From a virus: DNA of 49,491 nt. Where the stretch lies: positions 1-49,491 of IMG/VR virus record IMGVR_UViG_3300028610_000946, one strand, 5' to 3'. Positions 39,087 through 43,353 of this stretch are shown here, in pieces (position 1 is the stretch's first letter; each line of letters opens with the position of its first letter). The notes beneath the pieces were generated by a model, which did no database searches, was not told the origin of the DNA, and worked only from the letters and a program-made list of their open reading frames with translations. A program made the translations under genes and the position numbers.

Positions 39087-39338
39087 TTAAAATAGATTTT
39101 GCTGTTTTGTTACATATTCAGGTATTGCAAGTTCTTTTTCGAATGTTTCGAACATCGTGCAAGTTCCATCGTTTTTAACTAACATGTCCAGTATTTCTGT
39201 AGCCGTTTTATTTCCTGCTGCATCATAATTAAAGTTCATTTGTACTGCTGATATCGGACACGGTTTTTCACCGAAAATACATTTACTGCATTGTTCGTCA
39301 AAGCATTCACCTTCTGTACCGTTTGCAAAATATGCCAT
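39087..39338 (-). CDS. Small cysteine-containing protein
   Basis: 83 aa from ATG 39338. A longer frame starting at TTG 39524 would run into the RNA locus and through another gene, so it is rejected. The region FDEQCSKCIFGEKPCPISAV gives a CxxC and a CP, probably a zinc or redox site. It is coupled by TAATG to the membrane protein gene upstream. Confidence 0.65.
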   Translation of the reverse strand: MAYFANGTEGECFDEQCSKCIFGEKPCPISAVQMNFNYDAAGNKTATEILDMLVKNDGTCTMFETFEKELAIPEYVTKQQNLF

Positions 39339-39481
39339 TATATCATATCCCCCAGAAAACCTAATAGTAGAACAGTCAGCCAAATAACTTGTAGCCATCT
39401 TGGAGCTGATTGTTTCCAAAAAATGATTGCGAAAATACATACACCGCATGTAATTATAGACATTATATTTAATATGATCAT
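39338..39481 (-). CDS. Small membrane protein
   Basis: 47 aa, RBS aaagggggtacttATG. Two hydrophobic segments (IILNIMSIITCGVCIFAIIF and LQVIWLTVLLLGFLGDMI) separated by WKQSAPRW. It lies in a different frame from the neighbouring longer open frame and fits the RBS and TAATG coupling better. It begins right after the structured RNA locus. Confidence 0.6.
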   Translation of the reverse strand: MIILNIMSIITCGVCIFAIIFWKQSAPRWLQVIWLTVLLLGFLGDMI

Positions 39482-40020
39482 AAGTACCCCCTTTAAAATA
39501 AAACAGGGCTTTCACCTGCTCCAAGTTACGATCTCTAACGGGGTCCTTTTTCTGGTGACCGTCACCATTGATTCATTCTTATATACCGGCAATTGAATCA
39601 CTACCCGGTTGCAGATACGGTCTTCTAATCCGTCCAGGGCTTTCGCCTATCCTCTGCAAGACAAACCAGTCCAGATTGTGTCGACAGGGATTTACACCCT
39701 GCATAAATGGAAACTGACTGACTCCACACTTCTTGATTTTATCTTACCATTCTGTTAATCAAGGTGAATTTACAAGCCTGCCAGCCACAGCGTCTACTTA
39801 TTCCGCCACGACACACAGGAAATTATTTAACCATCCATGATGGATTGAGCGTCATATTTTGGAACTCAACCGCCGGCTTTCTATTTATAGTGCGTATGAC
39901 CTTTCCTGCACTACCCTTTTCCACACGTCCGGCATGCCTGCCATCAACCGCCGCCGGTCAACAAGGATTTTACCCGGCGTTTATTGGATCTCCAACGTTT
40001 TCACGTGCCGGAGGGAAATA
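39482..40020 (-). ncRNA. Candidate large structured non-coding RNA
   Basis: No convincing protein gene lies in this 539-base stretch. Read on the minus strand it is dense with nested pairings: TGTGTCG/CGACACA (39809-39815 with 39677-39683), CTTGATT/AATCAAG (39757-39763 with 39732-39738), GCAGGG/CCCTGT (39684-39702), TTGCAGA/TCTGCAA (39653-39659 with 39609-39615) enclosing GGC-GAAA-GCC, TGATTC/GAATCA, TAGTGC/GCACTA, GGTTGAG/CTCAATC and CCATC/GATGG. Several would be mismatches on plus and G-U pairs on minus. The size recalls ornate phage RNAs such as GOLLD or ROOL, but I cannot assign it to either. It would be processed from the recT transcript or have its own promoter. Confidence 0.75.
39677..39815 (-). 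other. tRNA-Leu-like element inside the structured RNA
   Basis: A 7-bp acceptor-like helix TGTGTCG/CGACACA, a D-arm-like GTGGCGGAATAAGTAGACGC as in bacterial tRNA-Leu, and a T-arm-like 6-bp stem with 7-base loop TGTAAAT lying flush against the acceptor. The T-loop lacks the usual TTC, there is no proper anticodon arm, no CCA, and the element is 139 bases long. It is a tRNA mimic or relic, not a normal tRNA gene. Confidence 0.5.
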
Positions 40021-40845
40021 TTAAAATACATCTCCTTTCTTTTCGGTTTCACTTTTCACCGGTTCAGGTTCGGCTTTTGGTTGTTCGATGTCTTTTTTTA
40101 TTTCTTCGGATTGGGTGGTAAATCCCGGCTCTGATACGTCCCGGAGTTCTCCGGATTCGGTTTTGTCGTCAATTCCGACGGCTTTGTCTATTTCGCTGGA
40201 GATTGACAGATTTCTGAATAGGGCTTTTATTACGGTTTTTAGTCCCATTCCTTCATATGATTTTGTCCAGGGTGATAGGTTTGGTTTGCTTTTAAAAAGT
40301 GCGCTGTACTGGTCTCTGTGCGCCTTGACCTCTTGATCGGTCATATATTTAACATGACAAGTGCCGTCTGTTAATTTTATAGCTGAGAAAAAGCCGTCAA
40401 TATCGCCGCGGGTTTTTCGTGCCGGGATGTATTCGTATTCGTCGCCGTTCATGGTCTTTTTGATCTTAAAATCGTCGGCACTTCGGACGGTGTCAGATGT
40501 GATAAACGCTACTTTTCCTGACTGATGAGCAAGGTCAATAAGGCCGTTTTTCATTACCTGATAGTTAATAGATCCACTGTATGGGATCAAGGCTGCTTTT
40601 CCCTCTTGCGGATTCAGGCTTAAACCGGTTGAAGCTGCGTATTTTAGGGCGTGCCATAGACTGGATTTTCCGGCATCGGTTTTTAGGCATTCTTTTAAAT
40701 CCTTGCTTTCTGTTATCATTAGCATTGCATTCCGTAAGAAATCGGACATTTTACCGCTGCCGCCGTGGTAGTTTTCCAGGCTTTTTTTGATTTCTGCCAG
40801 GAATCCGGATACGTGTTCTTCTTTGATTACTAATTGTTTACTCAT
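40021..40845 (-). CDS. recT: RecT single-strand annealing protein
   Basis: 274 aa. RecT features include LKTDAGKSSLWHALKYAAST, GLSLNPQEGKAALIPYSGSI and YKVM-type region NYQVMKNGLIDLAHQSGKVA. It anneals ssDNA in phage recombination. Length matches E. coli RecT (269 aa). It probably works with the YqaJ-type exonuclease at 42229. RBS caaaaggagaatcaaATG. Confidence 0.92.
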   Translation of the reverse strand: MSKQLVIKEEHVSGFLAEIKKSLENYHGGSGKMSDFLRNAMLMITESKDLKECLKTDAGKSSLWHALKYAASTGLSLNPQEGKAALIPYSGSINYQVMKNGLIDLAHQSGKVAFITSDTVRSADDFKIKKTMNGDEYEYIPARKTRGDIDGFFSAIKLTDGTCHVKYMTDQEVKAHRDQYSALFKSKPNLSPWTKSYEGMGLKTVIKALFRNLSISSEIDKAVGIDDKTESGELRDVSEPGFTTQSEEIKKDIEQPKAEPEPVKSETEKKGDVF

Positions 40846-41718: not shown

Positions 41719-42232
41719 CTGAGTCCTCCACTTCATAAAGTGCTTGGCATTGTTCATTATTGTAGACATTATCAAGGGATCTTCCTGCGATTGCTCCACA
41801 ATGTGATACAAAACCGATCATGGTATTATTTACTTCTCGCCATTTGCATAGTTGGCAGTTTGGGGTTTTGCTTATTTTATGGCCGACGCATGTAACATTG
41901 ACGCTTTCTAATGATGTTAGATCTTCTCTGATTCCGACGAATGGTTGATCTTTCCAAGTATCCTGACCGGCTTCGAATGAGTCCTGCATATCTGTTAGAG
42001 AATAAGATACATCTTTTATAATTTTTGAATATTCAACCCCGTATTCATTATAAATCCACTCTTCAAACTTTTCATTCTTTTCCATTGATTTCTCCTGATA
42101 ATTATTAAACTTTTTACACGATTCACAAGGATTTGCACCGACACCATTAAAATAATAAAGACAGGTTTTGCATTTTCTTTTCATTTTATTTATCCTCAAT
42201 GTAATATCTTTTACGCCGTCTGGTAATGTCAC
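41711..42232 (-). CDS. Cysteine-rich hypothetical protein
   Basis: 173 aa from GTG 42232, which overlaps the exonuclease stop (GTGA); ATG 42184 after a weak site is an alternative. CKTCLYYFNGVGANPCESC forms an N-terminal zinc finger, and further CQLC and C residues lie near the C-terminus. Lies in the recombination cluster. Function unknown; an internal methionine (MEKNEKFEEW) could begin a second product. Confidence 0.6.
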   Translation of the reverse strand: MTLPDGVKDITLRINKMKRKCKTCLYYFNGVGANPCESCKKFNNYQEKSMEKNEKFEEWIYNEYGVEYSKIIKDVSYSLTDMQDSFEAGQDTWKDQPFVGIREDLTSLESVNVTCVGHKISKTPNCQLCKWREVNNTMIGFVSHCGAIAGRSLDNVYNNEQCQALYEVEDSDD

Positions 42233-43353
42233 TTCGATACCCTAAAAACACGCTTTTCGTCTTTCTGTTTGCTGTATGTTGCAATTGTAAACCCTTGGCC
42301 GTCTTTTATTTCGAGTTTATTTGTGTTTTCTTCTTCCAGGACGGCAGGCATATCTTTTACGTAATTCATAACGGTTGTTGTCAATTCTTTTTTGCGTTTC
42401 GGCATCAATCCGGCGGTTCCGATTTCTTTATTTATGCCACGGATTTCGTTAATCCAGGAGATTATATTTTTATCTTTATCCTGATCAAGTACGACCGTTC
42501 CATGCGGTGAGGGACATAATTTTTTGATGTCGTCAAAGTTCATTGCTTCGGGTGGTTTGCGTGGGATAACGAAACGTTCCCAGAACTCTTGATATTTTTC
42601 CAGCATTGCTTTTATTAGGTCGTCGTTTCGTTTTATTTTGAATATGTGATGGTATCCCATTTGGTTGAGGGTACATGTCCATTTTAAGGGCAATGCAATT
42701 TCTTTAACTATTCCAGAATCATCTTTTCTTATAATTCTATATTTATCAGCTTCATACTCATGGACTTCCCATCCTTCATCGACAAGATCTTGGGGATGTT
42801 TCGGAAAAACTAACACGCTGACTATTGCTTCTTGGAGGTCGGCGAGGTACATATTATGTTGACATTGGAGATTGTAGGACCTGGGGATTAGGTCTTTTTC
42901 GATGTCCCATTTTTTACGGAAACCCATGTCAAAGGCGGTTTTCCCTTCGTATAATACTTTATCACTGACTAATTCATAGAGATTGCCTTCTCTGTGTTTC
43001 CATTGCTCAAAACCTGAGAATATGCCGTCGACGTGGCAGCTCATCATCATAGGGTTTTTAAGATTGTTCATTTGTGGGTATAGTCGCTTTTCAAATACCC
43101 GCTCTTGATCAATAATTTTCAATCCGGTTTTCTGTTCGGTTAGGGCTATTGTTGCGCTTTCGAAGGCGTGACCGAAATCTGTAGATGCGTTTCCTTCGAA
43201 TCGTTCCCACCCATAACCGTTTTTTTCTGCAAATCCGGGGTCTAAATCTTCCATAATGTCCATCCAGACATCTAATTGTGTGCCGTATTCGTTTTGACCT
43301 AATACGGAACCGGATCGGCTGCCGCTGATGGTTGCACTGATTGGGATAGGCAT
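42229..43353 (-). CDS. YqaJ-type (lambda Exo-like) recombination exonuclease
   Basis: 374 aa. Nuclease motifs GHAFE (Glu65), HVDGI (Asp109), YEGKTA (Glu136, Lys138) and YNLQCQHNMYLA (Gln163/Gln165) match YqaJ/RecB-like viral exonucleases. It would resect DNA ends to give RecT its substrate. C-terminal 120 aa are helical and charged. It lies about 1.4 kb upstream of recT with only small genes between. Confidence 0.88.
   Translation of the reverse strand: MPIPISATISGSRSGSVLGQNEYGTQLDVWMDIMEDLDPGFAEKNGYGWERFEGNASTDFGHAFESATIALTEQKTGLKIIDQERVFEKRLYPQMNNLKNPMMMSCHVDGIFSGFEQWKHREGNLYELVSDKVLYEGKTAFDMGFRKKWDIEKDLIPRSYNLQCQHNMYLADLQEAIVSVLVFPKHPQDLVDEGWEVHEYEADKYRIIRKDDSGIVKEIALPLKWTCTLNQMGYHHIFKIKRNDDLIKAMLEKYQEFWERFVIPRKPPEAMNFDDIKKLCPSPHGTVVLDQDKDKNIISWINEIRGINKEIGTAGLMPKRKKELTTTVMNYVKDMPAVLEEENTNKLEIKDGQGFTIATYSKQKDEKRVFRVSK

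Follow-up and report, generated by a model that had tools for sequence, protein, structure and literature searches.

The question raised by positions 39482-40020 of the window, as the whole 49,491-nt viral stretch analyzed here is called (IMG/VR record IMGVR_UViG_3300028610_000946), is what kind of RNA occupies a gap that holds no protein gene. An initial annotation had read the full 539 nt as one ornate minus-strand RNA, reminiscent of ROOL or GOLLD but possibly new, expected to measure 400-550 nt, within a recombination operon. The setting was read correctly: no credible frame is found in the gap, and it is adjoined upstream by recT, which encodes a ssDNA annealing protein (40021-40845, minus strand; PF03837, 8.8e-26; phrog_148). 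On the other, downstream side lies a small ORF of 47 aa, read from the sequence, with AAGGGGG before its ATG (39338-39481, minus strand). The leftward operon around the gap also holds a RecE/YqaJ exonuclease (42229-43353) and a primase-like gene, and the G+C content is 46% in the gap vs. 38% genome-wide.

The helices that the initial annotation named are all in the sequence, and its choice of the minus strand as the RNA, drawn from two helices with G-U pairs on that strand only, was correct. A structured non-coding RNA on the minus strand therefore stands, with a different extent and kind: the conserved unit is a mimic of a class II tRNA, 139 nt long and not 539.

Delimiting the Structured Element

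The plus strand of the gap folds with z = -0.29. The minus strand folded whole reaches z = -1.12, about 1.1 sd better than shuffles, of which 9 in 100 are as good, and the signal is confined to a central domain (39674-39815, minus strand) with z = -2.56 and one of 200 shuffles as good. The 5′ flank, on the recT side of the element (39816-40020, minus strand), has no homologue and no demonstrable structure (z = -0.25). The 3′ flank (39482-39676, minus strand), made up of the TTGCAGA/TCTGCAA domain and hairpins, gives a weak structure signal (z = -1.85) and likewise has no homologue. These extra hairpins in both flanks, together with the z-value of the 3′ flank, are what can be said for a single ROOL/GOLLD-like RNA of about 540 nt. 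Such an RNA is highly improbable given the scores of the whole gap and the 5′ flank, the fact that only the 139-nt unit is common to relatives, and the lack of any Rfam match: no family was matched when Rfam models (ROOL, GOLLD, group I intron, tmRNA, and others) were run against the window, relaxed E-values gave chance matches only, and the element is apparently new. Of the two closing helices proposed originally, TGTGTCG/CGACACA is the acceptor stem of the element, and TTGCAGA/TCTGCAA lies outside it in the flank. Within the latter domain, ACGGTCTTCTAATCCGT (39617-39633, plus strand) resembles the anticodon arm of tRNA-Arg(TCT), and no tRNA gene is called there.

Comparison of the window flanks with all collected loci (numbered L below) found no homologue, and an exact scan with one flank piece and one insert piece gave zero matches. 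Viral contigs searched through RecT, primase, and terminase contain no close relatives of the window phage, and by the same comparison its similarity to annotated phages is distant only.

As judged from its sequence, the element (39677-39815, minus strand) is an imitation of a leucine-type class II tRNA in which a structured, exchangeable insert replaces the anticodon arm. R1, a covariance model derived from 53 phage elements that do not include the window, matches it at 64.6 bits (E = 6.1e-15). The 5′ part, UGUGUCG-UG-GCG-GAAUAAGUAGA-CGC, corresponds to a leucine-tRNA acceptor strand and D arm. Its acceptor strand TGTGTCG (39809-39815) forms seven of seven pairs with 39677-39683, the same pairs that covary in relatives, and is followed by U8-G9 and the tRNA-Leu-type D arm TGGCGGAATAAGTAGACGC (39790-39808), the hallmark of the family. 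The 3′ part, GCAGGG-UGUAAAU-CCCUGU-CGACACA, comprises the T arm and the 3′ acceptor strand. The former (GCAGGG-TGTAAAT-CCCTGT, 39684-39702), identified from the parsed shell and the R1 match, has six pairs, the last being G-U, and no CCA is encoded after the latter (CGACACA, 39677-39683). An 87-nt hypervariable insert (39703-39789), with a final AU before the T stem, occupies the place of the anticodon and variable arms. The window thus carries every feature of the shell, namely the D-arm motif TGGYGGAATARGTAGACRC, a 7-bp acceptor, a 6-bp T stem, and a TGYAAAT loop. A second GGTGCAAATCC at 42129-42139 (minus strand) has no shell around it and is not an element. A functional tRNA-Leu was also rejected, as ARAGORN calls no tRNA in the window and the insert stands where the anticodon arm belongs.

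A Family Mostly in Phages of Bacillota

The D-arm motif TGGYGGAATAAGTAGACRC, scanned in IMG/VR with the T loop unconstrained, occurs 59 times in 58 viral contigs. In 56 of the 59 occurrences it is followed by a T arm whose stem has five or six pairs and then by the 7-base complement of the acceptor (6 or 7 of 7 bases). A related motif with AATAGG and UGCAAAU is present in at least 120 stretches, and allowing either form of the motif yields 57 reference-genome loci. Going by their record titles, nearly all of these belong to Bacillota, with a range that covers Bacillus, Paenibacillus, Weissella, Leuconostoc, Lactobacillaceae, Enterococcus, Listeria, and Clostridia. In total, 241 elements whose T loop is of the UG type were parsed from phages and prophages whose hosts are mostly Gram-positive. 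Among annotated phages, the element is carried by SPP1 (in the gap that separates genes 9 and 11), phi3T and BUCT082 (behind the HU gene), Leuconostoc phage LN34, Enterococcus phages EFDG1 and EG-TP1, Weissella phage PWc, and Lacticaseibacillus phage R24.2. Existing annotation shows no feature at the matches in SPP1, phi3T, and the other annotated phages, and the family is not listed in Rfam.

Model R1 is specific for the family, with normal tRNA-Leu genes scoring far lower at about 23-42 bits. At E ≤ 1e-9, it finds matches in 17 of 201 genomes from the taxonomic family to which a Leuconostoc belongs. In the phyla of two outlying seeds, by contrast, it finds none in 197 and 199 genomes other than the seeds themselves. 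ARAGORN calls a tRNA in none of 214 elements, and none of 241 encodes CCA. Two matches come from outside the Bacillota, L098 (titled Bacteroidales) and L109 (Alphaproteobacteria), both rumen MAGs; they are likely mis-binned phage contigs, because the remaining genomes sampled from those phyla give no match. A relative in the thermophilic phage D6E (L068:1199-1370), with the canonical T loop TTCGAAT and the D loop GAAAGGGTAGA, suggests a wider superfamily.

Covariation of the Shell

Covariation among homologues, which the initial annotation had put forward as the check on its structured RNA, is strong. In the set of 53 elements that excludes the window, 98.3% of cells are paired and the covariation score is 0.745 vs. 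0.213 in shuffled data; when the partners are slid by one base, covariation collapses. Each of the seven acceptor pairs varies in both of its bases, with all four Watson-Crick pairs in use at positions 1-6, while acceptor position 7, the bases of the T stem, and the D arm are conserved. These conserved parts could serve a protein other than RNase P. Although well-pairing members were the ones retained, the covariation is not an artifact of this selection, because the motif-only scan passed 56 of 59 occurrences.

The geometry of the elbow may also be altered. At the sixth base of the D loop and the third of the T loop (18-56), sequence-unrelated members have G:C in 99 cases, a count biased upward by the scans that required both motifs (those behind the 57 loci and the at least 120 stretches), A:U in 34, A:C in 9, and A:A in 2. 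The pair counts suggest a tRNA-like elbow shifted by one position, with 18-56 in place of 19-56.

A D arm only a few bases off that of a normal tRNA-Leu, with the anticodon arm gone, is also what a decayed or chance tRNA-Leu pseudogene would present. This explanation is refuted by the covariation and retains a negligible probability, as the roughly 240 members have fully paired, covarying acceptor and T stems, the D loop and T loop covary, and inserts are conserved across diverged phages. The shell is demonstrated, as are the structured nature of the inserts, their exchange, and the genomic settings described below; the function of the RNA is inferred.

Structure and Exchange of the Inserts

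Over the 241 elements the insert ranges from 34 to 214 nt, with a median of 61, and its sequence is hypervariable, falling into 144 groups with no 11-mer in common. Structure is nonetheless placed consistently: among 144 unrelated inserts, 62% have a helix (H1) that stops exactly 2 nt short of the T stem, compared with 9% of shuffled inserts (p ~ 7e-44). The peak is limited to distances of 2-4 nt, with little or no excess at 5 nt or more. In one insert type with seven members, all of whose acceptors differ, compensatory changes are found in three insert helices. A simple closing helix at the insert start is little enriched (33% vs. 26%), and a pseudoknot of at least five pairs between linker and H1 loop is mildly so (42% vs. 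26%); an H-type pseudoknot can be formed by many inserts, is likely for some members, and is not general.

In the window, the proposed helix H1 (GAATGG, 39747-39752, with CCATTT, 39705-39710, minus strand) would end 2 nt before the T stem, like that of relatives, although in this single sequence 295 of 2000 shuffles (15%) yield one as good. Two further 7-bp helices are predicted from the single sequence, CTTGATT/AATCAAG (39757-39763 with 39732-39738), pseudoknotted with H1, and GGCTGGC/GTCAGTC (39780-39786 with 39716-39722), which has two G-U pairs. In such a model H1 can cross both GGCUGGC/GUCAGUC and CUUGAUU/AAUCAAG. The window insert has no known relative, and its antisense match to the window is at chance level. 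Across the family, complementarity of inserts to the surrounding DNA equals the shuffled level, and an antisense role on flanking DNA is unsupported.

Some inserts contain tRNA-like parts of their own. A complete tRNA-Ile(GAT) gene lies inside the insert at L044:2179-2365, a tRNA nested in a tRNA mimic, and T-arm-like hairpins occur within the inserts of L007, L008, L058, and L250:602.

The inserts behave as cassettes that are exchanged wholesale. In some pairs of loci the flanks are near-identical (89-99%), yet the inserts are at the random level (52%). Examples are L076/L102 (flanks 97.9%, inserts 48%), L099/L241 (96.0% over 481 nt, 59%), phi3T/BUCT082 (91.8% over 610 nt, 60%), and L045/L218 (89% over 608 nt, 57%). 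Conversely, inserts are identical where flanks are only 75-85% so (L186/L193, L092/L107, and L158/L162), and inserts 98-100% identical occur where no flank homology is detected within 2 kb or the acceptors have changed (L195/L205, L158/L164, and L161/L222). A few pairs are intermediate, with insert identity of 74-76%. One phage may also carry several elements with differing inserts, six in L250 and two each in L256, L052, and L200.

Genomic Setting

Elements usually lie on the same strand as their neighbors (154 of 199 upstream, 136 of 193 downstream), at about 110 nt from each. A TATAAT-like hexamer 3 nt upstream is found in a minority only (12 of 137, where 1.5 are expected), and terminators follow 16 of 139 elements vs. 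6 of 134, little excess and not that of stand-alone genes. Such a placement, with the shell strongly conserved and the insert sequence free, would be consistent with processing punctuation, in which the shell would do no more than show where polycistronic transcripts are to be cut and the insert would ride along as a tolerated passenger. A mere passenger would not be expected to keep a helix at a fixed place with compensatory changes, or to stay 100% identical between diverged flanks, which leaves this a rather unlikely account.

Among 110 upstream neighbors scanned, the commonest family is phrog_36, phage transcriptional regulators or late activators (29 matches), and 17 match the activator family phrog_248, probably overlapping with the first set. 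Downstream neighbors include HNH endonucleases and terminase subunits. Many temperate phages of Bacillota begin their late operon in such a setting. The window element, in its recombination/replication operon, is unlike this commonest setting. The frequent location between late activator and HNH/terminase genes, and that of the SPP1 element between head genes 9 and 11, would suit a late assembly or packaging RNA similar in role to the pRNA of phi29; pRNAs conserve fold and not sequence, which would fit as well. This role is nevertheless very doubtful, because elements also occur in tRNA clusters, in arrays of six, and beside recT here, and because SPbeta does without one. At the site after yonN, the element is present in SPbetaL1, SPbetaL4, BUCT083, BUCT082, and phi3T and absent from SPbeta (L261:300-835), whose flanks are recognizably the same as those of its relatives. 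The element is therefore dispensable at the yonN site.

A tRNA lies within 1 kb of 54 of 214 elements (25%). In Enterococcus phage EFDG1 (L064:675-1228), a tmRNA (675-1025) directly precedes the element (1025-1228) within a tRNA cluster, and in SPP1 a mini hairpin ACGGAC...GTCCGT around the canonical T arm GGGTTCAATTCCC, followed by TTTTT, is found just past the element (L061:1310-1360). The proximity to phage tRNAs, and the retention of elbow, D arm, and acceptor without the anticodon, the usual nuclease target, would fit a tRNA decoy that titrates or blocks a host tRNA-directed enzyme, such as a defense nuclease or a tRNA-modifying or acceptor-acting toxin. Here the insert would make the RNA uncleavable or type-specific. 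The acceptor, however, has no conserved identity elements, with all four pairs in use at positions 1-6, so no single tRNA is mimicked there, and the simple version of a decoy needs no cassette exchange; on these grounds it is unlikely.

Proposed Role of the Shell and Insert

The reading preferred here, and on balance a probable one, is that the tRNA shell matures and stabilizes the RNA, with the insert serving as an exchangeable effector or specificity module. Host tRNA enzymes would cut the RNA from longer phage transcripts, RNase P at the 5′ end and RNase Z and/or exonucleases at the 3′ end, and the T loop would dock on the D loop in a tRNA-like shell that keeps the excised RNA stable. The insert would be the working part, binding a host or competitor factor that differs between strains, and phages would swap inserts and retain the shell. 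As a recognition module, the insert might act in counter-defense or in competition between phages. Inserts identical across diverged phages and replaced between close ones are what is expected of specificity modules under frequency- or host-dependent selection. A broader proposal, put forward tentatively, is that of a widespread class of phage RNA in which Bacillota phages trade strain-specific inserts, singly or arrayed, as allelic modules against defenses or competitors.

The family matters as a new type of RNA that model phages, SPP1 and phi3T among them, carry without annotation, and for the exchange of cassettes within a tRNA-like guise. If phages have an RNA-based effector of this sort, the inserts are the obvious place to look for it. 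With SPP1, phi3T, SPbeta-like phages, and SPbeta as a natural element-free variant, direct tests are possible in B. subtilis.

Comparison With Known RNAs

Among the closest known RNAs is tRNA-Leu (class II, RF00005), with which the family shares the D arm GGCGGAAU-RG-GUAGACGC, a 7-bp acceptor, a T arm, and A14 and A15 with U48. Unlike tRNA-Leu, the family has no anticodon arm and no CCA, its T stem has 6 bp, its T loop is UGYAAAU instead of UUCRANU, the D/T pairing is apparently shifted (18-56), an insert of 34-214 nt is present, and the elements fall below the threshold of the Rfam tRNA model. The arrangement of tmRNA is similar in that an acceptor and T arm are combined with a long insert, structured and pseudoknotted, where the anticodon arm would be. 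The element differs from it in sequence and in having a true D stem, no tag frame, and no G3-U70. At L064 the Rfam tmRNA model matches the neighboring phage tmRNA and not the element.

ROOL and GOLLD are phage RNAs near tRNA genes with no known role (PMC12286853). Their setting is like that of the family, but size and structure differ, and neither has a sequence match in the window. ROOL RNAs at L045:8713-9309 and L052:3251-3863 lie on tRNA-rich contigs that also bear family elements. No description of the family was found in the open literature, preprints and most subscription journals being beyond its scope. Within this incomplete coverage, the family is rated as categorically new as an RNA class, its shell being a variant of tRNA.

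The T4 RNAs C and D (species 1 and 2) are stable RNAs of 119-139 nt from a phage tRNA cluster, and their role is likewise unknown (PMC3014915; PMC9697503). T4 rnaC has its T arm near the 3′ end, as in the family. Both T4 RNAs differ in their canonical T loop UUCGAAU, the lack of such a D arm, and a different host group, and they were rejected as members when R1 gave no match in T4 (L060). The family may nonetheless have a bearing on these long-unsolved RNAs.
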